A stretch of DNA of 64,000 nt from Desulfolithobacter dissulfuricans (GTDB taxonomy: Bacteria > Desulfobacterota > Desulfobulbia > Desulfobulbales > Desulfobulbaceae). The stretch's first letter is position 1. Every line of letters starts with the position of its first letter. The translations under genes and the position numbers were made by a program. The notes beneath the pieces were generated by a model. The model did no database searches and had not been told where the DNA came from. It was given only the letters and a program-made list of their open reading frames with translations. This document shows positions 38,338-56,973 of the stretch, in pieces. The stretch covers positions 2,364,001 through 2,428,000 of the forward strand of contig NZ_AP024233.1 in the NCBI RefSeq assembly GCF_025998535.1. Direction: 5' to 3'.

Positions 38338-38501
38338 CAGGCCGTTGAAAAACTACTGCACTTGATGATGCTGCGTCAAAATTCGGCTCAGGTAAGCGAC
38401 CGAAGGGAGACTCCGAATGCTCATGTACTCCGTGTACACTGCGCTTTTTCGCGTCATTTTTCCTTGTCTCATCTTCGCTCGCTACGTTTTTCAACGGCCT
38501 G
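38338..38501. mobile_element. 164-bp element with perfect 16-bp terminal inverted repeats
   Basis: The ends CAGGCCGTTGAAAAAC and GTTTTTCAACGGCCTG are exact inverse complements. The interior has CAGGTAAGCGACCG, AGGGAGACTCCGA and no gene. The same ends, brought together as a short hairpin, occur inside gspD and gspH. The interior block also recurs in the 9-bp-TSD element (reverse strand), so the families may be related. No clear target duplication is visible. Confidence 0.75.
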
Positions 38502-42757: not shown

Positions 42758-45085
42758 CTATTTCTGCTGCAGCCGTTCGAGATTCTTCCTGGCCATTTCC
42801 CGGAATGGGTCCAGGGTTGCGGCCTTTTCCTTCTGCCCGGTGGTGTCGTCATCCTTTGAGGGTGGCGGGCTGTTCAGCACCTTTTCATACAGGGCTCTGG
42901 CCTGGTCCTTTTTTCCTTCATGTTCCAGAATAACCCCCAGATTCAACAGGGCAGAGGCATTTTCGGGATCGCTCTTCAGGGCCTGCTCAAAATACTGTTT
43001 CGCGGCGTCAAATTCTTTTTTCTGCAGCTTGGCAAAACCGATGTCTGCCAGGGCTGCGGCATGGGCCGGGTTAGGCTTGTTGTAGAAAAAGCTGTCCGGG
43101 ATATCGCTGGAGCCGGGCTGAACCGACTCCATGACATCCCGTTTCCTGTAATAAAGGTCGGCCAGTTCGGCCGGGTTTTCGACGATATGTGGGGTGATAA
43201 AGATAAACAGGTTGGTCTTTTCCTGCGACTCTATGCTGGTTTTGAACAACCAGCCAAGGAGCGGAATGTCTCCGAGCAGGGGCACCTTGTATTCACCACT
43301 GGAGGTGTCCTGGCCGATTATGCCGCCAATGACCACGGTCTCCTCGTTGTGGACCACCACGGTGGTATTGGCGCTCCTGGTGTAGGTGGTGGGACGGCCA
43401 TCATTGAGATTTTTCAGCTTGATAACCTCGACCCCGATATCGAGCCGCACCAGGTCGGACTGGTTGATCTGGGGGGTGATGGAGAGCGAGGTGGCCACGT
43501 CCTTGTACTCGTAATTGGTATAATCTTCCTGGGCGGTGGTGGTGTTTTTACTGACGATATAGGGCACGTTTTCACCCACCTTGATCTCGGCCTTCTTGTT
43601 GTCCGTGGTCAGGATCTGGGGCGTGGCGATGATGTTGATGTCCGAATCGTCCTTGTAGGCCCGCACCACCGCGCTTAAGTTGGGGAAATACATGTTGCCG
43701 ATCCGCACGCCCTGCTTCATGATCCCGAAGCTGAAGCCCGATGGGAGGACGGCAGGATCCGCACTGATCCCGTTGAGCGCATCGTAGGGGGCATCCTGGC
43801 TGCCGGAAAAGCCGGAGAGGATTGTCCCGGAACCACTGCTGAAAGAAGCCTCCCCGCTCCACTGGACCCCCAGCTCAAAAGATTTACTGACCTGGACCTC
43901 CATGATGAGGGCCTCCATGTAAACCATGCGCCGCGGGATATCGAGTTTCTTGATCACATCCTCAAGGACCAGGTATTCGTCCCGGGGGGCCTGGATGATG
44001 AGCGAATTGGTCTCGGCATCGGCCATGATCTTGACATCGCGGGAAATCGGCGGTGCCTTGCCGGTGGATTTTCCGGCGCTCTTCGTATCTGGCAGGTTGG
44101 TCAGCACCTTGACCAGCTCCTCGGCATTGGCGTGCTGCAGGTAGTAGACCTGAATCTTGCCCTCGCCCCGGGGCACCTTGGAATCCAGCTGAACCAGGAG
44201 ATTGCGTATTTTCCGGACATTGACCTTGGAGGCCAGGACGATGAGGGAGTTGGTCCGCTCGTAGGGGATCACCTTGACGATCTCTCTCCGGCTGCCCTTT
44301 TTAACCGAACGGATAAAAAGCTGGTTCAGGGTCTTGGCCACCGTGGTGGCGCTGGCGTTCTGCAGCGGCATAATGACGAGGTCCTCGCCGATGGAGGGTA
44401 CGTCGATGGCCCGGATGATATTCTGCAGCCGGTGGATGTTGGAGAGCACATCGGTGATGATCAGTACCCCGGACTCGGTATGGGAGATAACCACGCTGGT
44501 CTTGGAGACCAAGGGCGCCAGGATCTTTTTCACATCATCGGGGTTGGCATGGGCCAGGGGGATGATCTGGGTCACCACCTTGTCTTCGGGATAGGTGGCG
44601 TTGCCCTTGAGGATGGTGGCGATGCTCTTGGTCCGGGCCTGGGCCGAGGGAATGATCTTGATGATGGAACCACTGGGCACGGTGGTGTAGCCGTTGACTT
44701 CCAGGACCGATTCAAAGACCCGGTAGGCATCGGACTCGGAGATCCTGGTCGGCGAAATGATAGTCACCTTGCCCCGGACCCCACGGTCCACCACGAAATT
44801 CTTGCCGGTCAGCTCGCTGATATACTTGATAAAGAGATTGATATCGACATCGTTGAAATCAAGGGCGATGAACCGGCCACTTTTTTCCGGCTTTGCCGGC
44901 TCGGCGCCATGGGACGTGGTTGCCGTAATGGATCCCAGCAAAATGACGCAAAGAAGCAGGACAGTCGGCCATACCGACCCTGTGACAGGACGTTGAAAAA
45001 CGGCTGCGCGCGCTCCATTTTTCAACAGCCTGGCAATGCGCCGTTCTCTGTAGTCAGCCGACCAATGATTCGTAAAAAAAGCCAA
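42758..45085 (-). CDS. gspD: Type II secretin with C-terminal TPR extension
   Basis: 775 residues. After a hydrophobic signal (SVWPTVLLLCVILLGSITAT) come the N0 domain (FNDVDINLFIKYISELTGKN), the N1-N3 domains (for example VQIIPLAHANPDDVKKIL-like and YYLQHANAEELVKVLTNL) and the secretin core with VPLLGDIPLLGWLFKTS and TNLFIFITPHIV. The last 85 residues form a TPR-type helix pair (FAKLQKKEFDAAKQYFEQAL, ALLNLGVILEHEGKKDQARA), which ordinary GspD lacks. The protein forms the outer-membrane channel. A palindrome lies in the coding region before the signal peptide, so the true start is uncertain. Confidence 0.93.
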   Translation of the reverse strand: MAFFTNHWSADYRERRIARLLKNGARAAVFQRPVTGSVWPTVLLLCVILLGSITATTSHGAEPAKPEKSGRFIALDFNDVDINLFIKYISELTGKNFVVDRGVRGKVTIISPTRISESDAYRVFESVLEVNGYTTVPSGSIIKIIPSAQARTKSIATILKGNATYPEDKVVTQIIPLAHANPDDVKKILAPLVSKTSVVISHTESGVLIITDVLSNIHRLQNIIRAIDVPSIGEDLVIMPLQNASATTVAKTLNQLFIRSVKKGSRREIVKVIPYERTNSLIVLASKVNVRKIRNLLVQLDSKVPRGEGKIQVYYLQHANAEELVKVLTNLPDTKSAGKSTGKAPPISRDVKIMADAETNSLIIQAPRDEYLVLEDVIKKLDIPRRMVYMEALIMEVQVSKSFELGVQWSGEASFSSGSGTILSGFSGSQDAPYDALNGISADPAVLPSGFSFGIMKQGVRIGNMYFPNLSAVVRAYKDDSDINIIATPQILTTDNKKAEIKVGENVPYIVSKNTTTAQEDYTNYEYKDVATSLSITPQINQSDLVRLDIGVEVIKLKNLNDGRPTTYTRSANTTVVVHNEETVVIGGIIGQDTSSGEYKVPLLGDIPLLGWLFKTSIESQEKTNLFIFITPHIVENPAELADLYYRKRDVMESVQPGSSDIPDSFFYNKPNPAHAAALADIGFAKLQKKEFDAAKQYFEQALKSDPENASALLNLGVILEHEGKKDQARALYEKVLNSPPPSKDDDTTGQKEKAATLDPFREMARKNLERLQQK
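44986..45032. repeat. Short palindrome inside the 5' end of gspD
   Basis: CAGGACGTTGAAAAACGG and CCATTTTTCAACAGCCTG face each other across 11 bp. In the gspD frame the arms read RLLKN and VFQRP. The ends match the terminal repeats of the 164-bp element at 38,338-38,501. Confidence 0.8.
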
Positions 45086-45159
45086 TCCAATACTCCTGTG
45101 TAGTTCGCCAGGCCCCGCCCTGCCGCGGGAGCCGGGTACCGGTGGGCAATCGTGACACC

Positions 45160-45903
45160 TCAGCGGGCTTCAATGATGACCGGTGCCATCTCCGGCTCCT
45201 CCAGGTCGTCCCCATCCATCGCGTCCCGGGGACTTTCCTCGTCCGCTCGAAACACCGTATCTGGTATCGGTTGCTCCACATCCTGCCTCGCCACCTGCCG
45301 GGGACGAAACGACCTGCTGCCTGCTGTTCTCGGAGTGGAAATCCTGGGCCGGGCCACCGGCCGAGTTATTGAAATCGGTGGCATGGGCCGGCCGAACATA
45401 TCGGTCCGGTCCACAACGTTTTTGCTCTCCCGGTCCTTGAGCAGCAGGACCTCCCTGCGTTTCCCCACCCGCAGGATCACCTTGCCCCGCTCGATGGATT
45501 CGATGATCGCGCCCTGGACAGCATCACCAACATGGTAAATATCCTGCCGTTTTTCCTTTTCGTCAACAATTATCGCCCGGGCGTCCCGCTCATTGCCGGA
45601 AACAGTGCCCAGCAGTTCCAGTTTCAAAGAGGTGGCCTCCAGGGGCTCTTCCCTGTCTTTCTCCTTCTGCGGCAACGGTTCGTTCACCACGGCCTGAAAA
45701 ATATTGCGCTGGACGATGAGCTGATAATCCAGGGCCTGAACAGGCCCCGCATCAGCAGCTACAATGGTGCCGGGCTGCTTTTTCCTCTGGTCCAGGGCCG
45801 CTTCCGGCACCTGCATTCGCTGCTCCAGGCGGGAATAGAAAAACAGCACCGCGCCGTAGAGCAAAGTGGTAATGAGCAGCAACCTGATAGCCACGCGGAA
45901 CAT
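45160..45903 (-). CDS. gspC: Type II secretion inner-membrane protein GspC
   Basis: 247 residues. One N-terminal membrane helix (AIRLLLITTLLYGAVLFFYS) is followed by the homology region: YQLIVQRNIFQA and LKLELLGTVSGNERDARAII, which contacts the secretin N0 domain. The C-terminus after residue 165 is Pro/Arg-rich and acidic, with no PDZ domain and no coiled coil. It therefore resembles the short, PDZ-less GspC proteins. It lies directly before gspD in the usual C-D order. Confidence 0.88.
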   Translation of the reverse strand: MFRVAIRLLLITTLLYGAVLFFYSRLEQRMQVPEAALDQRKKQPGTIVAADAGPVQALDYQLIVQRNIFQAVVNEPLPQKEKDREEPLEATSLKLELLGTVSGNERDARAIIVDEKEKRQDIYHVGDAVQGAIIESIERGKVILRVGKRREVLLLKDRESKNVVDRTDMFGRPMPPISITRPVARPRISTPRTAGSRSFRPRQVARQDVEQPIPDTVFRADEESPRDAMDGDDLEEPEMAPVIIEAR

Positions 45904-45905
45904 GA

Positions 45906-46844
45906 TCAGCGCTGTCCCTCCAGGGTCTTTGGTGGAAACGGGCTTGCGGGAAAACGAATTCCCGGCTCGAGCAGGGTACCCTTGACACCGAAGGGAAGCT
46001 TGCCCTGCTGCAGACGCTCCCGTATCGAAGCGGTGGCGGCATCGTCGCGGATTCCGCCCAGCAGCTCCGGCAACGGCGTGATCATGCCGTGCAACTTTAA
46101 AGACGATGCCGTCAGCTGTGGCTGGAGCTGAACCGTTCCGGAAAAGATCGCCTTCAGCAACCGGGACCGCACCTGTCCGTCCTTGACCACAAGCTCCCTG
46201 CCCCGCTGCTCCAGAGTGAGCTCTATCTTCTGAAACGGGAAAACCTTGTGCCCGAGCACCGGCTCACGCATGGTGACCTTGCCATCTTCCAGAAAAAAAT
46301 AAAAATGTCCCTGGAGTTGACCCAGCCCCTTTTCTGTTGGCCCTATCTGACACTTGTACCGACCCGACAGAAGGCCGCTGACCTGGCGGCCAAGGAGCTG
46401 CTGGAATTGCGCTAGCCCGGCGACCTGCAGCCTGGCAAGCTTGCCGATACAGGCCAGCCTGCCGCTGCGGCCCAGGATGACCTCGCCCGTCATGGTACCC
46501 CCGAGGAGCTCGAGCCGGTAGAAAAAGACCGGTCGCTGGCGTCGCAAGGAGGCGACATAATCTGGCCGAACCTGTGCCCTTTCAACCCTGAGCCACTCTA
46601 TCTTATCGTTTTCCCAATCTTTTACCCTGATATCCTGAACAACAGCCCTGTCGGGTAATTGCAGACGCACTGAGCCCACCTCCCAGGAGAGAGCCGGATA
46701 GGCCTCCTGCAGACGGTACTCGAGCCAGGTACGGGCGCTCTCGGCAGGAAAGAGCCACCAGAGCAGCAGCACAAGGACAACCACCCCATAGAGAAGATAT
46801 CCGGCCATGGCAAGAATCCGGCGAACAAACCGCATCCCGGTCAT
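45906..46844 (-). CDS. gspN: Type II secretion protein GspN
   Basis: 312 residues. An N-terminal membrane helix (AGYLLYGVVVLVLLLWWLFP) precedes a beta-rich domain of the AsmA-like GspN type (LELLGGTMTGEVILGRSGRL, GTVQLQPQLTASSLKLHGMI). GspN occurs in a subset of type II systems, mainly in this kind of delta-proteobacterial operon. Its function is poorly known. The start overlaps gspM by four bases, and the stop lies two bases before gspC. Confidence 0.82.
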   Translation of the reverse strand: MTGMRFVRRILAMAGYLLYGVVVLVLLLWWLFPAESARTWLEYRLQEAYPALSWEVGSVRLQLPDRAVVQDIRVKDWENDKIEWLRVERAQVRPDYVASLRRQRPVFFYRLELLGGTMTGEVILGRSGRLACIGKLARLQVAGLAQFQQLLGRQVSGLLSGRYKCQIGPTEKGLGQLQGHFYFFLEDGKVTMREPVLGHKVFPFQKIELTLEQRGRELVVKDGQVRSRLLKAIFSGTVQLQPQLTASSLKLHGMITPLPELLGGIRDDAATASIRERLQQGKLPFGVKGTLLEPGIRFPASPFPPKTLEGQR

Positions 46845-47380
46845 CCTCCTGTCCCGGCAGCTCGCTCGACTGTGACCACCTGCATGATCACGTCCAGCAT
46901 GCCCTGCTCTTTTTTGTTTTCCTGGATGGTGATCCGCTTGATGGCGACGATATTTTCCGGCGCCTCCACCATTTTGAGCAGGTCCACCAGCTGCTGCAGG
47001 GTGATACCCTGCAGTTTCATCTCGACCATGTTCTGCCTGAAGGGCCCGTCACCCTGGATGGTGGAGGGTTTCATATAGACGATGCTTTCCTTGACTCCGG
47101 TCATGGCCGCCATTTTTTCCAGGAAGGAAAAGAGGCTGAAATCCGGGGACCGTTTTTCCAACCGGGCATGGAGGCTGTTGGCCCGGGCATGGAGCTGCCG
47201 GTAGCGCTTCTGCATATCCCGCATCTCCTGCACCGCTTTTTCCCGAACCGCGATGCCGCGCTCAAGCCGCCTCTGCTTCTCGGCCAGCGGAAAGACGACA
47301 AACTGCAGGAGGACAAAGAGCCCCACGGCCAGCGCCCCGATCATCAGGGCTGTTCTGTCCCGTCTGCCAAGGGCCATCAC
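46841..47380 (-). CDS. gspM: Type II secretion protein GspM
   Basis: 179 residues. A single N-terminal membrane helix (ALMIGALAVGLFVLLQFVVF) is followed by a coiled coil (LAEKQRRLERGIAVREKAVQ) and a ferredoxin-like C-terminal domain (MVEMKLQGITLQQLVDLLKM). This is the layout of GspM, the partner of GspL in the inner-membrane platform. It overlaps gspL upstream and gspN downstream by four bases each. Confidence 0.86.
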   Translation of the reverse strand: MMALGRRDRTALMIGALAVGLFVLLQFVVFPLAEKQRRLERGIAVREKAVQEMRDMQKRYRQLHARANSLHARLEKRSPDFSLFSFLEKMAAMTGVKESIVYMKPSTIQGDGPFRQNMVEMKLQGITLQQLVDLLKMVEAPENIVAIKRITIQENKKEQGMLDVIMQVVTVERAAGTGG

Positions 47381-48936
47381 TCAGCCCTCCCAGGGGTATT
47401 TCCCGGCAGCCCCAGGTTCACCGCCACGGATGGAGCGGGCGGAAAGGTGGACCTGAGGGTAAGGCGGATATCGAATCGGACCATGCCGCTGTCCTTTTCG
47501 ACGGTGGCCGCCAGGATTTCCACCTGGTCGTAGAGAGGTGAGCTGCCAAGACGGTTCTTTATGGCGTCCACGTTGTTGAAGGCGTTGGTCACCCCCTTGA
47601 TCCGCACGGTTTCCTGGTCGATCACCATCCGGGAGACATGGAAGGTGATGGTCTCCGGAATGCGACCGGAAATGTCGGCCAGGATCCGCAGCACCCGTTT
47701 CTCGGCAGAAAAGGCGGGAACCGTGGCCGGACTCTGGACCTCACGCAGTTTTACCTGCATCTGCAGGTAGGGGTCGACGATGCGGGTGTCTTCGGGAAAG
47801 GTCTGGTGATAGATGGCCCGCATTTCCCGGTCCAGCCGCTCATAGGTTGCCTGTAGTCTCCGGTACTCCGTCAGGTACATGAAACCAGCGACACCGGCCA
47901 GAGCAACCGCGACCAGCCCGGCCGCTATCTTCTGCAGTCGCGAACCAAGCAGTTGTCGCCTGGGGGCGAACTCCTGGCGGCGGAAATTGAGGGGATATTT
48001 TTTTCCGGCCCCGGCAAACAGGGCCAGGACGTGATCGTGGCAGCCGGGCCGCCAGCTGTCCTCCACATCTGCGCTCAACTCTGCCCCCATCAGAGCGGCG
48101 AGTTCGCACCGCTGGGCCGGCAGGGCAAAACAGGACGCAACCGCCTCGACCACGCAGTCCACGGCCGCCAGGCGACCGCTCAGCAGGATACGCCCGGGAG
48201 TGCAGGTTGCCTGGTTTTCCGTCCCGTACCAGGCCAGGCTGCGTTCGACCCCGGTACACATTTGCTCAACACAGGCCCGGACCTCCTGTTCATCCTCGAC
48301 CGCAACCTCTGCGCCCTCGATGGCCATCACAGTGCCGGAGAACAGTTTGTTGCCAGAGGGAATATGACGGAGAAAGACGACCTGTCCGCCACAGCAGAGG
48401 ACCAGGGTAGTGGAGTAAAGGCCCAGGTCCAGGAGAAGAAAATCCTCATCCAGGCCGGCCTGGCAGAGCTGGTGGGCCAGGGCAAAGCCGTGCAGGGTTA
48501 CGGTGTGCGGATCAAGACCCTGGCCCTGGAGCGCTTCGAGGTGGGTCTGCAGGAACTGCTTTTCCAGCGCTGCAACCAGGAGTTCAGAGCCTGAATCTCG
48601 CCGGCCGGTCTGCAGAAAATCGATGACCTGACTCTCCGGCGGAAGAAGCAGGTGTTCTTCAAGTTCCAGGGGCAGCACCTGGGCGATCCTGTCCTGCTCC
48701 TGAAAGGGAAGAAAGAGATTGCGTAAACTGCAGCTGCCAGGTGATACAGCACTGACCACCGCGCACCGGGACCGGGCTTTTTCAAGACCAACCTGGGTCA
48801 GCGCACCGGCCAGATCCTCTCCCTGCAGCGGGACGGCCGCCGCCTGGAGGATCCGTATCTTCCCACCCCGTTGCTCCATGACGGCAACATGCACCATGTC
48901 ATCATGGACATCGAGGCCAAGTACGCGCTTTGCCAT
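47377..48936 (-). CDS. gspL: Type II secretion protein GspL
   Basis: About 519 residues. The cytoplasmic part (MAKRVLGLDVHDDMVHVAVM) has an actin/PilM-like fold with DEDFLLLDLGLYSTTLVLCC. A membrane helix (IAAGLVAVALAGVAGFMYLT) follows near residue 375. The periplasmic ferredoxin-like domain ends the protein. GspL links the GspE motor to the platform. The open frame continues about 90 codons upstream, but that part is hexamer-repeat and hairpin DNA (HVDVDEHVHEYGYV), so I reject it. Confidence 0.88.
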   Translation of the reverse strand: MAKRVLGLDVHDDMVHVAVMEQRGGKIRILQAAAVPLQGEDLAGALTQVGLEKARSRCAVVSAVSPGSCSLRNLFLPFQEQDRIAQVLPLELEEHLLLPPESQVIDFLQTGRRDSGSELLVAALEKQFLQTHLEALQGQGLDPHTVTLHGFALAHQLCQAGLDEDFLLLDLGLYSTTLVLCCGGQVVFLRHIPSGNKLFSGTVMAIEGAEVAVEDEQEVRACVEQMCTGVERSLAWYGTENQATCTPGRILLSGRLAAVDCVVEAVASCFALPAQRCELAALMGAELSADVEDSWRPGCHDHVLALFAGAGKKYPLNFRRQEFAPRRQLLGSRLQKIAAGLVAVALAGVAGFMYLTEYRRLQATYERLDREMRAIYHQTFPEDTRIVDPYLQMQVKLREVQSPATVPAFSAEKRVLRILADISGRIPETITFHVSRMVIDQETVRIKGVTNAFNNVDAIKNRLGSSPLYDQVEILAATVEKDSGMVRFDIRLTLRSTFPPAPSVAVNLGLPGNTPGRAE

Positions 48937-48999
48937 TATCGTCTGGGTGCCAGCAGTAACATGATAATCCGTTCCCAAAGGGCATGGTTTACAAACATA

Positions 49000-49160
49000 C
49001 CCGTACTCGTGAACGTGCTCGTCAACGTCAACGTGAACGAACACCATCTGATTATTTTCATAGTGATGCAGGACCCCCGCCCTCCGGGCGACAATCCCGG
49101 GGCTACGCAGCGCAGATGGTTGCAACGGACGTGTACGTTCACGAGCACGTTTACGTTTTA
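49000..49160. repeat. Hexamer-repeat inverted element H2
   Basis: The left arm consists of CGTNNN hexamers (CGTACT CGTGAA CGTGCT). The right arm, about 70 bp away, is the inverse (ACGTTC ACGAGC ACGTTT). Between them CACCATCTG and CAGATGGTT extend the stem, and CCCCGCCCTCCGGGCG forms a tip. It lies between gspL and gspK. Confidence 0.75.
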
Positions 49161-49225
49161 TGACAAAGCCGTTCAACTGTGACCCTGCCCTGAGGACAGG
49201 GTCTTCTGACACAGAATAAAAAAAA

Positions 49226-50188
49226 TCACTCGACTTTCCAGTACACCAGGCTCAGCTTCTCCTGCCGCTGCAGGATACCGGTGCCCTGGCGCTCGATCTC
49301 CCCGGAACGGGCCCGGATCCCGATCCGGAACCAGGAACTGCGGATGGTGATCAGGTTTTCCGGCAGGATGATACCCTCCATGCCCGGAACACCGGTGTAC
49401 CAGGCCGGGTCTGCCAGCAGCTCACGGTTGTCCGGGTCCTGGCGGAATTCGAGCAACTCGGCCACGGTCTCTTCGTCCAGCTCTGGATGCAGGGCCCTTA
49501 AGACCAGGTCGGGAGCCGTATTAATATTGATTGTACCCTCCTGGCCGGTAATGGTCAAATACTCAATAATCCCGGAATGTTCTTTATTACCGTACAAAAT
49601 CTCCGCTGTCATGCCCCGGACCAGGAGCAATTCTTCCGGGTATCGGACCGGTCCGTTGCGGCAGCCATAGGGCGGAGAAAGGCTGGCGTAGTAGCTGTTT
49701 TCCGCTCCCTGGTCACGGGTTTCACTGTCCGGATCCACCCAGTCAGCCAGGGCGTCCACCAGAGCGGTGGCCTCATCCACGGAGTCGATACCAAATTTCC
49801 CTGAACTGAGGAAACGGACCCAGATCTGGCGTTGGGCCTCGCTCTGGGCCAGGCTGTTCACCTGCAGGCGGCCGGAGAGGTCCTTGATCTTAAGCTCAAA
49901 CATGTCGGCGGAGAACAGGGTGGTCAGCTCATCCTGATCCAGACTGGCCCACCCATCGTGGAGAGAGTCAAAATCGTTTTGCCTGAGATCGGCGAGCAGC
50001 GCGGCCCTGGCGATATTGAGCCCGCCCAGCAGCATGGTGTCGAGCCGGGTGGTCTCCTGGAAATGGACCGCGCCCTGGAGCTGAAAAGTCACGCTCCGGT
50101 TGAACTGCAGGGTCACGGCCACCAGGAAGGTGATGGCAAACAGGGCCAGCAGCAGGGCCATGCCCGAACGGTCCCGCAACCGCATCAT
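49226..50188 (-). CDS. gspK: Type II secretion minor pseudopilin GspK
   Basis: 320 residues. The class III leader is MRLRDRSG, cut before MALLLALFAITFLVAV; the +5 position is not Glu, as usual in GspK. The large soluble domain has ADWVDPDSETRDQGAENSYY, GCRNGPVRYPEELLLVRGMT and the helix-hairpin-helix-like part GTININTAPDLVLRALHPEL, all typical. GspK caps the pseudopilus tip with GspI and GspJ. It overlaps gspJ by four bases. Confidence 0.9.
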   Translation of the reverse strand: MMRLRDRSGMALLLALFAITFLVAVTLQFNRSVTFQLQGAVHFQETTRLDTMLLGGLNIARAALLADLRQNDFDSLHDGWASLDQDELTTLFSADMFELKIKDLSGRLQVNSLAQSEAQRQIWVRFLSSGKFGIDSVDEATALVDALADWVDPDSETRDQGAENSYYASLSPPYGCRNGPVRYPEELLLVRGMTAEILYGNKEHSGIIEYLTITGQEGTININTAPDLVLRALHPELDEETVAELLEFRQDPDNRELLADPAWYTGVPGMEGIILPENLITIRSSWFRIGIRARSGEIERQGTGILQRQEKLSLVYWKVE

Positions 50189-50904
50189 CCTTCCCCTCCG
50201 CCGACCTGTTTGAACTGCAGCAGCCCGGCCGGCAGCAGGATACGGGTAGAAAAGGTCAGAAAACGTTCCTTTTCCTTGTCAAGCCACAGCTCCAGAACAC
50301 AGTTCACCGCTGCCGGCAGCCCGGATGTCAGGTTCTCTGCGCCTGTCTCTTCACCGCCATCCCAGGAGTCGTGGACCCCGCCATCCCGGTCCAGATATTC
50401 AAATGTAAGCGTCCGCACCCGATCGCAGAGCCGGAAGCCGGGATCCGTTGCCTGATCCGCGTTGTCCGGCTCTCCGGGACGAAACAGGGTGTCCCGGCGG
50501 TAGAGGATAAAGCCGGTCCCATCAGTATCCGGGGCCAGGGTGTAGGTTATCCGCCCCAGTCCCGGAAGCTCATGCGCCGGGTCAAAGACAATATGGGCCA
50601 TGGAACCAAAACGCAGAAGCCGGGCCGCCTCCCCGTCCCCTTCCCCGGCCGTGCCGACAAAATCGATATCATCACCCGGGAAAGCCGAACCGAGATCCTC
50701 GCTGATTCGCTCAAGCGTTATCTGGGCCCGGTAATAGAGTTCACCTTCGGTGCGGGTTTTTTCAATGGCATCGAGGCTGCCGGAAAGGGAGAGGGAGACC
50801 ATGGCAACCACCATGGCCAGGACAGCCATGGCCAGGAGAATCTCCAGCAGGGTCATGCCACCGCTGGCTGACAGTAGACGCAGGCATTGGCGCCGGGCAG
50901 TCAT
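50185..50904 (-). CDS. gspJ: Type II secretion minor pseudopilin GspJ
   Basis: 239 residues. The prepilin motif is SASGGMTLLEILLAMAVLAM, with cleavage after Gly and Glu at +5. RAQITLERISEDLGSAFPGD and FEYLDRDGGVHDSWDGGEE match the GspJ domain. It forms the tip complex with GspI and GspK. It overlaps both neighbours by four bases. Confidence 0.88.
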   Translation of the reverse strand: MTARRQCLRLLSASGGMTLLEILLAMAVLAMVVAMVSLSLSGSLDAIEKTRTEGELYYRAQITLERISEDLGSAFPGDDIDFVGTAGEGDGEAARLLRFGSMAHIVFDPAHELPGLGRITYTLAPDTDGTGFILYRRDTLFRPGEPDNADQATDPGFRLCDRVRTLTFEYLDRDGGVHDSWDGGEETGAENLTSGLPAAVNCVLELWLDKEKERFLTFSTRILLPAGLLQFKQVGGGEG

Positions 50905-51335
50905 TGGATGGCCCCGGCTGGCGGTTCCTGGAGCAGCACCGCTTTGGCCTGGTACACAACCCTGGCCGGGTCGCCCCGGGTTATCAGGAGATCCACGGCC
51001 TGCAGCATGTTATCCGGGTCTTCGAATCCGAGATTTCCCGCCTCCAGCCGTTGCACGTCCACCTGCCAGCCGTAGTCGGCAAAAGGCTCGTCAAAGCGGC
51101 CGGACTCTGCCCCCAGGTTCTCAGCATCGGCCAGGGCAAGTTCGGTAAGTTTTTCCCGGGCCAGCCGCGAGGCCGTCAGCGTGACCCGGGAGACACCGGC
51201 CAGGGACACGCTCTGGGACTGGGATCCGATCAGGGTTACCAGGGCAATGGAGATGATGGCGACCGCCACCATGACCTCGAGCAGGGTAAAGCCCGGTGAG
51301 AGATGGGGGCGCAAGGTGTGCTGCCTGTGCTTCAT
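50901..51335 (-). CDS. gspI: Type II secretion minor pseudopilin GspI
   Basis: 144 residues. SPGFTLLEVMVAVAIISIAL is the prepilin cleavage site and hydrophobic helix. ASRLAREKLTELALADAENL and GRFDEPFADYGWQVDVQRLE match the GspI domain. It is a pseudopilus tip component. Confidence 0.88.
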   Translation of the reverse strand: MKHRQHTLRPHLSPGFTLLEVMVAVAIISIALVTLIGSQSQSVSLAGVSRVTLTASRLAREKLTELALADAENLGAESGRFDEPFADYGWQVDVQRLEAGNLGFEDPDNMLQAVDLLITRGDPARVVYQAKAVLLQEPPAGAIQ

Positions 51336-51358
51336 TTCATAGCCGTGTTCCGCAATCC

Positions 51359-51922
51359 TTACCGTACCTGTGCATCGTCCAGGTCAAGATAGTCGCCAAA
51401 TATCCGGGTGACCGACAAAAAGGGGGAGAGCAGAACTGTCATTTCGTTTCCATCCTGGTCCTGCAGGTGGATGAGAGTTTTGTCCACGTAACCTTTACGG
51501 CTGAACCAGATTGTCGTGCTCCCCACGCTGCGCCGGCCTCCGTGCACCGAGACAACGTCCCGGATCCGCACCTGGGCGGGAAGCTGGAGCAGGGCAGCCT
51601 GGTCCCCGGGGATATTTTTGCGTTCTTTGTCCGCAGACGCCCAGACGCGCCCTTCTCCCAGGTCCAGGTGGAGATAATAACCCCGGGAGGAACGGACCGC
51701 CTGCTGGCTGGTTTCCGCCACCAGGCCGATCAGTCTGCGGGCCGTAGATTTCAGGGGATCGGTCAACAGGGCAGTGTACAACCTGGGAACGGCAAAGACG
51801 GTCATGATAGCGATGAGCACCATCACCACCAGCAGCTCGAGGAGGGTAAAGCCGTTATCAGGCCGTTGAAAAACTATCACATTTTTCAACAGCCTGTTAT
51901 GAGCGCGGACAGATGGACGCAT
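51359..51922 (-). CDS. gspH: Type II secretion minor pseudopilin GspH with an unusual leader
   Basis: About 187 residues from MRPSVRAHN. The prepilin motif is GFTLLELLVVMVLIAIMTVF. ARRLIGLVAETSQQAVRSSR and the beta-rich C-terminus are GspH-like. The leader before the cleavage site is about 24 residues, three times the usual length. Most of it (RLLKN-VI-VFQRP) is encoded by a palindromic element, so the leader was probably lengthened by insertion. Whether the prepilin peptidase accepts it is unknown. Confidence 0.85.
   Translation of the reverse strand: MRPSVRAHNRLLKNVIVFQRPDNGFTLLELLVVMVLIAIMTVFAVPRLYTALLTDPLKSTARRLIGLVAETSQQAVRSSRGYYLHLDLGEGRVWASADKERKNIPGDQAALLQLPAQVRIRDVVSVHGGRRSVGSTTIWFSRKGYVDKTLIHLQDQDGNEMTVLLSPFLSVTRIFGDYLDLDDAQVR
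51859..51895. repeat. Short palindrome inside the gspH leader
   Basis: CAGGCCGTTGAAAAAC and ATTTTTCAACAGCCTG enclose five bases. In the gspH frame the arms read RLLKN and VFQRP, exactly as in gspD. The left arm is identical to the end of the 164-bp element at 38.3 kb. Confidence 0.82.
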
Positions 51923-51956: not shown

Positions 51957-52418
51957 TTATTCCAGTTCCCAGTTATTGATATCAGCGTCCTTGCCTTCGC
52001 CACCCGGTTCGCCGTCCGCACCATAGGACATCAGGTCGAAATCGCCGTGCAGGCCAGGGCTTATGTAGATGAAATCATTACCCCACGGATCCTTGGGCAC
52101 CCTGCCCTTGTCAAGGTAGCCGCCCTGGCGCCAGTTTTTGGCCAGGCGGCCAACTGCCGGCGGCTCCACCAGGGCCTGCAGTCCCTGCTCGGTGGTGGGA
52201 TACTGGCCATTGTCGAGCTTGTAAAGCTTGAGAGCCTGCTCGATGGACTGAATCTGGATGGCAGCCTTGGTCCGACGGGCCTCCTCGGGCCGATCCATGA
52301 TTCGCGGCACAATAAGGCCGGCCAGGATGCCGAGTATGACCATGACCACCATCAGCTCAATCAGGGTGAACCCCTGGGAAGACAGCAAAACGTTTCTGTG
52401 TTTTCTGAAAAAAAACAT
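51957..52418 (-). CDS. gspG: Type II secretion major pseudopilin GspG
   Basis: About 153 residues from MFFFRKHRN, with AGAGG five bases upstream. [20 protein letters not shown] is the class III prepilin motif with Glu at +5. The C-terminal domain has [20 protein letters not shown] and [20 protein letters not shown] with the calcium-site loop [15 protein letters not shown]. GspG polymerises into the pseudopilus. It is the first gene of this operon; gspF, normally next to it, is not here. Confidence 0.93.
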
Positions 52419-52589
52419 GATACCTCTTTGCGTTGTGCCCCTAAGCGGCAAGTCAATTCCCATTATCAGGTTACCCCCTATCTTACCACACCATAGAGGA
52501 TTTGCAGATATTTTTACCGGGCTTGGGCGGGGGACCTCGCAATTCCGCCTCGCTCTTACTGGCATCCCTGGGAACGTGGCGTGACAAAA

Positions 52590-52775
52590 AAACGAGGGGT
52601 GTTATACCGCGGAGCGGTATGCCTGGCTCAGTGGCCTTGATCGGGCCTGGCAAAAGGTCGTTCACCGCGGAGCGGAGGAACGAGGAGATATCTTGGTTAC
52701 TCTGGTTCCTCCGCTCCGCGGTGAACCAGCGCCTCGGACCAACCCTCCGGGAGGCAGACGATTCAGCACACCGCT
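52590..52775. repeat. First unit of a 280-bp palindrome array, interrupted by the IS element
   Basis: In order: GTTATACCGCGGAGCGGTAT (52,601), GTTCACCGCGGAGCGGAGG, its inverse CCTCCGCTCCGCGGTGAAC, and the left half CACACCGCT of a third palindrome, where the IS begins. The unit continues on the other side of the IS at 54,246. Confidence 0.88.
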
Positions 52776-52789
52776 TCCATGAGAAGGCT

Positions 52790-53096
52790 TGTCAAGAAAA
52801 GTTCGACGTGGCGAACCATTTTTTTTATAAATCCCTGTAACGTCAGGCTTCCATTCGCATTCATATAAAGAGCTCAGCCATAAGCTCGATGCATCGTACA
52901 ATCCGTCGTGGAAGCTGCAACCTCCGCGGCGGTCTTTGAATATGTCACTGGCTGATGACGGACCGAGCGGTGTCACGCAGTCTTCCGGACGGGACGTTTT
53001 TTTGAGGGAGATATTAAAAACTCTCAACTGCCTTTGGAAACAGAAGGAAAAACATCCTTTTTTCCCTTTGTTCACTCTCTGGTTCAACCGGGTTTT
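52790..53096 (-). ncRNA. Candidate bridge/seek RNA region of the IS
   Basis: About 300 bp of non-coding DNA separate the transposase stop from the element end; the other side has only about 90 bp. IS1111-type elements encode their targeting RNA at this 3' side. The region contains local hairpin potential (CCGCGGCGG and nearby). I cannot fold it here. Confidence 0.4.
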
Positions 53097-54152
53097 CTAC
53101 GCAGCCTTTGCCAGGGGGCGAGATTGCGGTTTGTAAAAAGGGTCATATATCTCACCGTGCTGCCAGAGGCGATGCATGAGTACCGCCAGTTTTCTGGCTA
53201 CGGCAACCACGGCACGACGCTTTGCGTTTTTACCTCCCCTGGCTGCCAGGCGAAGACCAAATCTTCGTAAATTGCAATCCTCTCCAAAAGGTCCCAGGAT
53301 GTACTGGGCCGAACCGACCAGTAACCTCCGCAGATAGGGGTTGCCCGCTTTGGTTATCCGAAGCTGCCTGTCGGTTTCTCCTGACTGGTCGCGGCGGGGA
53401 GTCAGGCCAAGAAAACATCCAACCTGTCTACTTTTGCCAAATCGTGCCGGGTCTTCCACGATTAATAGAAAGGCCAGGGCCGTCAGAGGACCAACTCCTT
53501 TTATGGCCCGCAATAATTCGGTCTCCGGGTATCGCTCCGCACTGATACGCTCTATTTCCCTGTCAAATTCTTTGATCTGGGACGTAATCTGGCCGATAAT
53601 TGTCAATACAGGCTCCAGAGCGCCACGTAAGTCTTCAGGAAGATGTTCATCTGCCTGCCGGTGAAAACTGTCTGCGCTGCATCCCGGCAGGCGATATCCC
53701 AGCGCCTTGACACTGCCACGAACATGGTTGATCAGGCTGGAGCGGTTCCTCACCAGGACATCCCTGGCCTGCAATATCTCCAGATCAATCTGGGCCTGTT
53801 CGCCCCTGTGGTTGACCGGATAGAGCAGATCAGGATCCATCCGGGCTATGCGGGCCAGCATTTCAGCGTCTCTGGTATCTGATTTATCGTTGCTGTCCCA
53901 GATGGCGCGTAATTTACGAGGGTTGCCAACCAAAACATGGCAGCCCAGCCTGGATAACAGCCTGCTGATCCAGGCCGAATGGGTACCGGCTTCAAGGGCA
54001 ACAGTTGCCCCTTTATGGGGTGAGAAAAACTCACTCAACGCCTCTCTGGTATTAGTAACCGTATCTCGACGCACGATTCGGCCTGCATGATCAACAATAC
54101 AGATAACATGATTTTTATCGCCAAGGTCCATTCCGATTGTTACATTGTGCAT
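53097..54152 (-). CDS. IS110-family transposase (DEDD recombinase)
   Basis: About 351 residues. The RuvC-like DEDD site is visible as Asp9 (TIGMDLGDKNH), Glu54 (VALEAGTHS), Asp92 and Asp95 (KSDTRDAEML). The C-terminal Transposase_20 domain has LRAIKGVGPLTALAFLLIVE and GKSRQVGCFLGLTPRRDQSG, then ITKAGNPYLRRLLVGSAQ with the catalytic Ser region. IS110 enzymes insert DNA at sites chosen by an element-encoded RNA. The gene is intact, so the IS may still move. The start at MHNVTIG follows the family pattern. Confidence 0.94.
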   Translation of the reverse strand: MHNVTIGMDLGDKNHVICIVDHAGRIVRRDTVTNTREALSEFFSPHKGATVALEAGTHSAWISRLLSRLGCHVLVGNPRKLRAIWDSNDKSDTRDAEMLARIARMDPDLLYPVNHRGEQAQIDLEILQARDVLVRNRSSLINHVRGSVKALGYRLPGCSADSFHRQADEHLPEDLRGALEPVLTIIGQITSQIKEFDREIERISAERYPETELLRAIKGVGPLTALAFLLIVEDPARFGKSRQVGCFLGLTPRRDQSGETDRQLRITKAGNPYLRRLLVGSAQYILGPFGEDCNLRRFGLRLAARGGKNAKRRAVVAVARKLAVLMHRLWQHGEIYDPFYKPQSRPLAKAA

Positions 54153-54245
54153 GGCTGGTTCTCCCAGGTTGTGCAGCATTCGACTGCGGTTATTCTTGAG
54201 CGTGTTTATAACACAGCTCGCGGGGAATCAGCCTTCTCATTTTAC

Positions 54246-55090
54246 CTCCGCGGTGTAAGAGACAGGTACCAATGGAACGACATGTCTCCACTGCCGTTTC
54301 CCAACCATGGCACTGTCTGGAGATCTGGAGCATGGCGTGACAATAAAACGTTGGGCGTTATACCGCGGAGCGGTATGCCCGGCTCAGTGGCTTTGATCGG
54401 GTTCGGGAGGGCGTACGTTCACCGCGGAGCGGAGGAACGAGGAGAATGGGCCACACCCTGGTTCCTCCGCTCTGCGGTGAACCACTGGTACGGAACGTCC
54501 CTCAGAGGAACTGGCTTGGCGCACCGCTCTGCGGTGCAGCAGACAGGTACCAATGAAACGACATGTCTCCACTGCCGTTTCCCAACCATGGTGCTGTCTG
54601 GAGATCTGGAGCATGGCGTGACAATGAAACGTTGGGCGTTATACCGCGGAGCGGTATGCCCGGCTCAGTGGCTTTGATCGGGCCTGGCAAAAGGTCGTTC
54701 ACCGCGGAGCGGAGGAACGAGGAGATATCTTGGTTACTCTGGTTCCTCCGCTCCGCGGTGAACCAGCGCCTCGGACCAACCCTCCGGGAGGCAGACGATT
54801 CAGCACACCGCTCCGCGGTGTAAGAGACAGGTACCAATGGAACGACATGTCTCCACTGCCGTTTCCCAACCATGGTGCTGTCTGGAACTTGGAGCATGGC
54901 GGGACAATAAAACGTTGGGCGTTATACCGCGGAGCGGTATGCCCGGCTCAGTGGCCTTGATCGGGCCTGGGAAAAGGTCGTTCACCGCGGAGCGGAGGAA
55001 CGAGGAGTAAAAACGAGGATATGATACTCTGGTGCCCTGGTTCCTCCGCTTTGCGGTGCAGGAGACAGGTGCCCCTGGAACGGTATGTCT
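54246..55090. repeat. Continuation of the 280-bp palindrome array
   Basis: GTTATACCGCGGAGCGGTAT recurs at 54,358, 54,638 and 54,921. Each unit adds GTTCACCGCGGAGCGGAGG about 58 bp on, then its inverse, then GCACACCGCTCCGCGGTG-type hairpins and GAGACAGG. Units are close to identical in parts, and sequence drift is greatest in the last one. No gene is visible in this kilobase. Confidence 0.88.
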
Positions 55091-55164
55091 TCTGCTGCCA
55101 TCGTAACCATGGTGCTGTCTGGAGCTACGGAATATGGCGGGACAAAAAAACGAGGGGGTGGGAG

Positions 55165-56973
55165 TCACACGGCCTGGCGGCGGAAGGAACTGCGGATCAG
55201 CCAGGTGATGAGCAGGAGGAGAGAAACCGCAAAGGCTGGAATACCGAGGTGGATCAGCAGCCAGGCAAAGCCTACCAGGGGGAGGAGCAGGACGCAGGTG
55301 AGCTGGCGCAGGACGGAATTGCCGGCAATCAGCCGGGCCAGGGCGGGAGAATGGTGGTAGTAGGTCTGAACCAGCCAGCGTCCCGGGGCATGGGGCAGCA
55401 GGTACCTGTCGCGAAAGGTGCGCAGGATCGTCACGTACGGATGCCACAGGGAACCGTAGGCAGCGGTGGCGATGAAACAGGAATCCATGGAGGTGGAATC
55501 CTGGGCTGGTTCTTTGCCTCCTTCCGAGGTCTGGTTTTGCGGCCCTGCGGCCATGGCCTCATCCCGATCCGCAAGTTTCAGGGATGTGGGCGGTTGCTCG
55601 TAGCGGGCCAGGGCAAATTCCGCGTTCTGACCTGTTCCCATACCGCCGACAACAACCAGTTTGCCGTCCAGCTGCATGGCCACACCATAACTGATATCCT
55701 CGCCGTCCCCGAAAGAGGTAGTCGCGATCTGAAACAGTGTGCCCTCCTCGGGAGCGGCGGGAACAAAGGCAGGGGGAAGAGATTTCTGCACCACCAGTTC
55801 GCGTATCCGGAGCCATGAACGGTTTTTTTTGCCCTGTTGAGCGGTCTTTTTCGGCGGTATGGAAACAAGTTCTTCCAGCGTGGAAGTAAGCAGAAGAAAA
55901 TCCCGTCCGGATCCGGCGGCCAGCCAGCCACTGGCGGCAAGCCTGTCACCGTCCACTGCCAGGTCGTAGAGCACATCGTCGTCACCAGAGGCCTGGATGA
56001 CATGGACCCCGTCCCTGCCAAACGACGGATCGGGCCGGCCGTCAACGAGGAAATGGAACAGGGCCGCATCGCGCTTTCCAGGGCTGCCCGTGGAACCGGC
56101 TACCAGGATGGAACCGTCCCCGAGCAGGGCCGCCCCGTACCCTTCGAAAATCTCCCCATGGCGGGCAAACATGACCAGCCCCTGATCGCCGAAATCGGGA
56201 TCTGGCTGACCACCAGGGAGAAAACCTGCCAGCAGAACGCCGGTCTGACTCCCGTCCCGGTACGAACCCACCACCAGCAGACGACCATCCTCCCGGACCA
56301 GCAGGTCCTGGGCCAGGGCCTCCTGCCCCACACCCGCGAGGATCATGCCCCGGGCACCGAATCCCGGGTCGAGCCGACCGTCAGGGCGATACCGTGCCAG
56401 CGCCACCACGTCACCTGCGGTTCCGGAAACTGTCCCGGCCACCAACACAGCGCCCTCCTGGTCCACGGCCAGGGCGCCGATTTCGTCGTCGCCATTGCCC
56501 ACCGGGGTGATCTCCAACCCCTGGTTTCCGAACCGGCGATCCAGGCTGCCATCTGACCGCAAACGGATAAGGGCGAAATCCCGGTCCAGGCCGTTTTCCG
56601 CATAACCACCTGCAACGATGCTGCCATCGGCCTGCAGGGCAAGGGCCTGGATCGCACCGCCGCTGGCCACCGGCAGGAGCACCATGCCGTCGCGGTTAAA
56701 TTCCAGATCAAGGGTCCCGTCCGGATTGAACCGGACCAGGGCGAAATCGCGCCGGGTGGCGTTGGCGGAAAAGCCACCGAGCAGGATTTTTCCATCCGGC
56801 TGGACCACCACCGCATGGGCCCTGGCGCCGTGCATCCCCAGTTGGACCGCGATTCGCCCGTCGGCTCCGAAGCTGGAATCGAGCCGAAAGCCTGGTCCGG
56901 CCCAAGTCGGAAGAACGGTGAGGACCAGCAGCACTATCAGTAGACAGAGGCAAAAAAAGTGGCCACGGAGCAT
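55165..56973 (-). CDS. Delta-60 repeat protein with CFI-box C-terminus
   Basis: About 602 residues. A signal peptide (FFCLCLLIVLLVLTVLPTWA) is followed by seven or so repeats of about 50-60 residues with the pattern 'QPDGKIL.GG...F.L.R...DG.LD..FG..G', for example VVVQPDGKILLGGFSANATR and RSDGSLDRRFGNQG. These delta-60 repeats probably form a beta-propeller. The C-terminus has CFIATAAYGSLWHPYVTILR and RDRYLLPHAPGRWLV, the CFI-box-CTERM type, and ends in membrane helices and RRQ. It is likely exported and anchored. An upstream GTG overlaps the preceding gene, but the ATG has a better GGGA. Confidence 0.85.
   Translation of the reverse strand: MLRGHFFCLCLLIVLLVLTVLPTWAGPGFRLDSSFGADGRIAVQLGMHGARAHAVVVQPDGKILLGGFSANATRRDFALVRFNPDGTLDLEFNRDGMVLLPVASGGAIQALALQADGSIVAGGYAENGLDRDFALIRLRSDGSLDRRFGNQGLEITPVGNGDDEIGALAVDQEGAVLVAGTVSGTAGDVVALARYRPDGRLDPGFGARGMILAGVGQEALAQDLLVREDGRLLVVGSYRDGSQTGVLLAGFLPGGQPDPDFGDQGLVMFARHGEIFEGYGAALLGDGSILVAGSTGSPGKRDAALFHFLVDGRPDPSFGRDGVHVIQASGDDDVLYDLAVDGDRLAASGWLAAGSGRDFLLLTSTLEELVSIPPKKTAQQGKKNRSWLRIRELVVQKSLPPAFVPAAPEEGTLFQIATTSFGDGEDISYGVAMQLDGKLVVVGGMGTGQNAEFALARYEQPPTSLKLADRDEAMAAGPQNQTSEGGKEPAQDSTSMDSCFIATAAYGSLWHPYVTILRTFRDRYLLPHAPGRWLVQTYYHHSPALARLIAGNSVLRQLTCVLLLPLVGFAWLLIHLGIPAFAVSLLLLITWLIRSSFRRQAV

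Follow-up and report, generated by a model that had tools for sequence, protein, structure and literature searches.

The window (the whole stretch of 64,000 nucleotides of Desulfolithobacter dissulfuricans DNA that we analyzed) contains an operon for type II secretion. Two of its genes, gspD and gspH, each carry a palindrome, and the two inserts lie 7 kb apart. The main features, in window positions, are listed below.

38338-38501: full-length, 164-bp member of the MITE family, intergenic
42758-45085, minus strand: gspD, type II secretion secretin (TIGR02517, E 1.2e-156), TTG start, 17 codons added by the insert
44982-44985: GTGA, gspD flank, one side of a probable degraded target-site duplication with a likely GTAA-like ancestor
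44986-45032, minus strand: palindromic mini-MITE in gspD, 47 bp, translating as (A)RLLKNGARAAVFQRP
45033-45036: GCAA, gspD flank, opposite side of the probable degraded duplication
51359-51922, minus strand: gspH, minor pseudopilin (N_methyl), ATG at 51922, 14 codons added by the insert in the leader
51855-51858: TTAT, left side of a perfect target-site duplication in gspH
51859-51896, minus strand: palindromic mini-MITE in gspH, 38 bp, translating as RLLKNVIVFQRP
51897-51900: TTAT, right side of the perfect duplication in gspH
51957-52418, minus strand: gspG, major pseudopilin and upstream neighbor of gspH, assigned from a GFTLIE prepilin motif in the sequence and from gene order

The match of GspH to TIGR01708 (E 2e-10) was below the model cut-off. 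An initial annotation of this region had placed the two palindromes in the N-terminal coding parts of gspD and gspH, where we also found them, and minus-strand translation gave the same frame and the same peptide arms, RLLKN...VFQRP, in both genes. That annotation put the gspD repeat before the signal peptide; it does precede the hydrophobic core, but it sits within a long n-region of the signal peptide itself. The reported common orientation of the two repeats carries little information, since the element is a palindrome. On the plus strand, the gspD copy reads CAGGACGTTGAAAAA...TTTTTCAACAGCCTG. When the window was shuffled 100 times with dinucleotides preserved, the palindrome patterns had no match.

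Other features of the region were also observed. GspD has C-terminal tetratricopeptide repeats beyond the secretin domain (residues about 676-741, window 42863-43060), which are also found inside the aligned region of close relatives. A 46-nt inverted repeat with 72% complementarity and CGTGAACGTG-like units is located between gspK and gspL (window 48978-49173). Within window 52500-55450, a transposase-like gene (53097-54179) is placed between stretches with repeated translations (ITPNVSLSRHAP... and TAERRNEEISWLLWFLRSAVNQRLGP), which occur on both sides and on both strands.

A palindrome family in the genome and its likely mobilizer

The initial annotation had proposed a genome-wide search for the palindrome, which we carried out on the single 3.6-Mb contig of this genome. 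The end motif CAGGCTGTTGAAAAA, with no more than 2 mismatches, occurred 105 times, versus 9 times for the reversed control. Pairing of ends (no more than 3 mismatches in total across both) yielded 24 elements of 35-406 bp with CAGGCYGTTGAAAAA on both sides. These copies were gathered by pattern and similarity, and the count of 24 omits very degenerate and single-ended copies as well as a 269-bp pair at 1883206, which resembles an IS1182/IS5-like element. Fourteen copies were 128-206 bp long and one was 406 bp; most of these 15 longer copies shared interior sequence. The remaining nine (35-57 bp) consisted of barely more than the two ends.

The family is flanked by a 4-bp target duplication with the consensus NTAN. 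When left and right 4-mers were compared, 70 of 96 flank positions agreed (45 expected), a value reached in none of 20,000 shuffles. The duplication was perfect in 8 of 24 copies, and 17 of 24 matched at 3 or more of the 4 positions (shuffle mean, 6). A 2-bp TA duplication was dropped in favor of NTAN once further copies had been compared. The gspD flanks, GTGA and GCAA, could derive from GTAA by one change on each side. Like MITEs, all copies are shorter than 500 bp and have no transposase gene. Shared terminal inverted repeats, the NTAN duplication, small size and a related IS identify this family, as judged from its sequences, as a MITE. We found no named MITE with these ends in the literature searched. 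A REP element of the RAYT type was rejected, as the duplications are clear and the likely partner is a DDE transposase rather than a tyrosine (Y1) enzyme. A phage-borne element was also rejected, with no match among viral contigs or phages; a plasmid search gave two partial matches only (71-78% identity, Pseudomonas veronii and Halomonas).

The copies in gspD and gspH were inside genes. The other 22 of 24 were apparently intergenic (ORF context was judged by eye), several of them touching stop codons. For example, the copies at 1266402, 1646901, 2112707, 2210445 and 2510924 abut the stop codon of the adjacent gene; the TAA or TAG lies within the target duplication, so that insertion leaves the protein unchanged. 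By contrast with gspD and gspH, a 47-bp copy (genome 3578612-3578658) lies just ahead of a small gene whose reading frame it shares. This gene has its own ATG and AAGGAGG, both downstream of the element, which is therefore probably an untranslated leader in this case. The 164-bp copy in the window contains a 27-bp motif, AGGTAAGCGACCGAAGGGAGACTCCGA, which was detected at approximately 20 further sites in the genome, often in tandem, and is widespread in other genomes of the order.

Other families of the order also have genomes with long or full-length members, with identities mostly of 76-88%; none was found in the other searched genomes of the organism's own family. One other genome of the order had clean duplications (CTAA/CTAA, CTAG/CTAG and TTAG/TTAG). 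The 47-bp form, with a nearly identical core and usually with duplications, was present in four further genomes, and 47-bp forms thus extend to other families of the order. The family thus has a patchy spread through the order that includes Desulfobulbaceae. Generic GTTGAAAAA...TTTTTCAAC palindromes of other genomes mostly have other cores and were left out of the family. They include abundant GTTGAAAAAGCC...GGCTTTTTCAAC palindromes with a different core in genome G024 (111 matches) and in several genomes of one family, which probably represent a separate repeat family with similar arms.

Elements of approximately 1.5 kb with ends CAGCCCGTTGAAAAA were identified in three genomes, with the duplications ATAG/ATAG, CTAT/CTAT or CTAA/CTAA. 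Their transposases (459-469 aa in the two examined) matched the DUF772 and DDE_Tnp_1 profiles, and the best match was to the IS1182 model, below its cut-off. In the genome under study, no intact transposase with exactly these ends was found, and none of the PF01609 transposases whose loci were inspected had them as a pair. A frameshifted, 1257-bp IS1182-like copy (genome 1790837-1792093) does have CAGCCCGTTGAAAAA ends, with CAGCCC instead of CAGGCY, and is a candidate relict of the mobilizer. Because one end base differs between the 1.5-kb elements and most MITE copies of this genome, the IS1182/IS5-like elements are only the likely mobilizers of the family.

Reading frame, translation and fate of the inserts

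Counting the duplication, an insertion of the 47-bp form lengthens its site by 51 bp and one of the 38-bp form by 42 bp; for most short forms the gain is a multiple of three. Of the nine short copies of this genome, read on the same strand as in gspD and gspH, seven have an open phase 3 and all but one have a stop in phase 2. When the T of NTAN falls at the third codon position, every one of the nine is free of stops on one or both strands, and in six of them both strands are open. With this T as the second codon base, TGA comes next in nearly all short copies, and with the T as the first base, TAA or TAG often arises. Insertions that spare a gene would therefore mostly show RLLKN...VFQRP, and the frame and peptide shared by gspD and gspH reflect survivorship rather than targeting.

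Several observations suggest that translation passes through both palindromes. No ATG, GTG or TTG is present between the gspH palindrome and the cleavage motif G^FTLLE, and translation must therefore start upstream of the palindrome or inside it. In gspD, the single candidate start downstream of the palindrome is a TTG inside the hydrophobic core. The initial annotation had noted that starts downstream of the palindrome in both genes would make it merely intergenic; the available start codons do not allow this reading. Upstream of the insert, the gspD TTG at 45085 is preceded by AGGAG at a distance of 7 nt. The gspH ATG at 51922 has no good Shine-Dalgarno match, and its use is thus argued from the empty site: when the flanks are rejoined without the insert, both genes stay in frame, giving MRPSVRAHNGFTLLE, an ordinary prepilin leader, in gspH and ...YRERRITGSVWPTVLLLCVILL in gspD. 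Provided that this ATG is used, the GspH leader has approximately 24 residues (MRPSVRAHNRLLKNVIVFQRPDNG^FTLLE), as first proposed, compared with MRPSVRAHNG^FTLLE in the insert-free version.

Comparison with orthologs, also proposed in the initial annotation, showed no insert in any of the 105 gspD loci retrieved (103 with a readable N-terminal part) or in any of the approximately 43 gspH loci retrieved, some loci in these counts being the same genome taken twice from two collections. The nearest GspD proteins were 72-74% identical, and Desulfobulbaceae were closest among named genomes. The idea of an inserted mobile palindrome that is read in frame is well supported by about two dozen copies, target-site duplications, insert-free orthologs and the ribosome-binding site upstream in gspD.

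Judged from sequence, each insert lies ahead of the expected cleavage site, within the n-region of the signal peptide in GspD and within the prepilin leader in GspH. The n-region of a Sec signal peptide is normally removed by signal peptidase, and a prepilin leader by prepilin peptidase. Both insertions may therefore be tolerated, as the N-terminal segments that contain them are expected to be cleaved. That two genes of one operon were hit may be partly due to the abundance of leaders in this operon (gspD, G, H, I, J and K).

We suggest that the palindromes are short copies (47 and 38 bp) of a non-autonomous, IS-derived transposon, a MITE. This transposon duplicates 4 bp on entering NTAN sites, and an IS1182/IS5-like transposase of an element with matching ends probably moved it. 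Single copies would have entered gspD and gspH in the phase that remains open and lengthened them by 17 and 14 codons, respectively. Both proteins would be translated across the insert, and the added residues would be cut off by signal peptidase in GspD and by prepilin peptidase in GspH, leaving the mature proteins unaltered and the insertions as nearly neutral passengers. We consider this explanation as a whole highly probable.

A different path to the same outcome is that longer copies inserted first and were then reduced to in-frame remnants at the same site, through deletions between short repeats. If CGCT repeats of the long form recombined with loss of the sequence between them, the junction of the 47-bp form (CTACTGCGCT/CGCTACG) could result, and the gspH copy (38 bp) is 9 bp below the 47-bp form. 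The 206-bp forms (429717, 480650 and 1361791) likewise lengthen their site by whole codons, with one or more phases free of stops. However, most long forms would have broken the genes, and the 47-bp form is found with duplications at numerous sites in several genomes, which is consistent with a short form that is itself mobile; we give shrinkage in place a modest chance. It is also conceivable that the palindromes supplied the start of translation, with GTG 51880 used in gspH (MIVFQRPDNG^FTLLE) and TTG 45025 in gspD (MKNGARAAVFQRP...), in which case the original 5' ends were replaced and the proteins not lengthened. The leader and signal peptide would then have ordinary lengths, the gspH GTG falls within the loop (6 nt) of the hairpin predicted there, and the gspH ATG lacks a good Shine-Dalgarno match. 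Yet the ribosome-binding sites of these inner starts are poor (only AGG at 12 nt in gspH and no match at a usable distance in gspD), and the sequence upstream of them would be locked in the stem. In addition, the upstream gspD TTG has its AGGAG, and the empty gspH site with the upstream ATG gives a canonical leader of 10 residues. Only a small chance is left for starts within the palindromes.

The presence of both intragenic copies in one operon, together with the predicted hairpin (strong in gspH, z -3.9; z -2.0 in gspD), might suggest a regulatory or adaptive role, in which hairpins near the starts of two genes tune how well the secretion-system mRNA is translated or how stable it is. However, any copy of the family would form the same hairpin, and the hairpins are well downstream of the start codons. 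A scan for intrinsic terminators detected no terminator-like site at the palindromes, Rfam at gathering thresholds gave no RNA family match for them, and gspD and gspH of all relatives examined lack the palindrome, which makes such regulation most improbable. A more general idea is that a transposon hardly larger than its two ends, which adds whole codons and has one phase free of stops on either strand, can lengthen proteins without breaking them, is retained by preference in leaders that are cleaved off, and also helps to tune the secretion operon; this appears very unlikely. Insertion of already short MITE copies, translated and then cleaved off, remains our preferred explanation.

Relation to known mobile palindromes

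These observations suggest how conserved genes can take up a minimal mobile element without harm, namely when its phase is readable and proteolysis is expected to erase the stretch that receives it. They also warn annotators that odd N-termini, such as a pseudopilin leader of 24 residues or an n-region of 40 residues, may be transposon-derived, and they describe a small family of MITEs for which an IS partner is plausible. The family is new and of a kind already known; it belongs to ordinary mobile-element biology, and its placement is instructive.

Prokaryotic MITEs, as presented in a review (PMC10969869), include Chunjie of Geobacter uraniireducens and QMITE1 of Coxiella burnetii, the latter 39-400 bp in size. 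Like the elements described there, those studied here are short, mostly intergenic and of IS origin, have terminal inverted repeats and direct repeats, lack a transposase, and occur in many copies of varied size, very short ones included. Unlike other prokaryotic MITEs, they have their own ends and host group, their smallest forms (35-48 bp) are almost ends alone, and two copies are in frame within genes.

The initial annotation had likened the inserts to Rickettsia palindromic elements. These are described in reviews as about 105-150 bp long and located in genes in nearly half of the cases, with the insert still present in one or more of the products studied (PMC10969869, PMC2229807). Compared with those descriptions, a mobile palindrome read in frame within conserved genes is a common feature, but here the coding copies are rare (2 of 24 in this genome and 0 of 10 short members examined elsewhere), and are located in N-terminal segments expected to be cleaved, and the family can be linked to an IS by its ends and target duplication; the resemblance is therefore loose. 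Another case involves the enterobacterial RU-1/ERIC and RU-2 elements, intragenic MITEs of 103-168 bp that are found in frame in proteins (Delihas 2007, PMC2759123). In Yersinia pestis YPO1552, RU-2 contributes to the predicted signal peptide (PMC2759123), which is a close precedent. Unlike RU-1/ERIC and RU-2, the elements in gspD and gspH have other sequences, are shorter, and merely extend an n-region or a leader.
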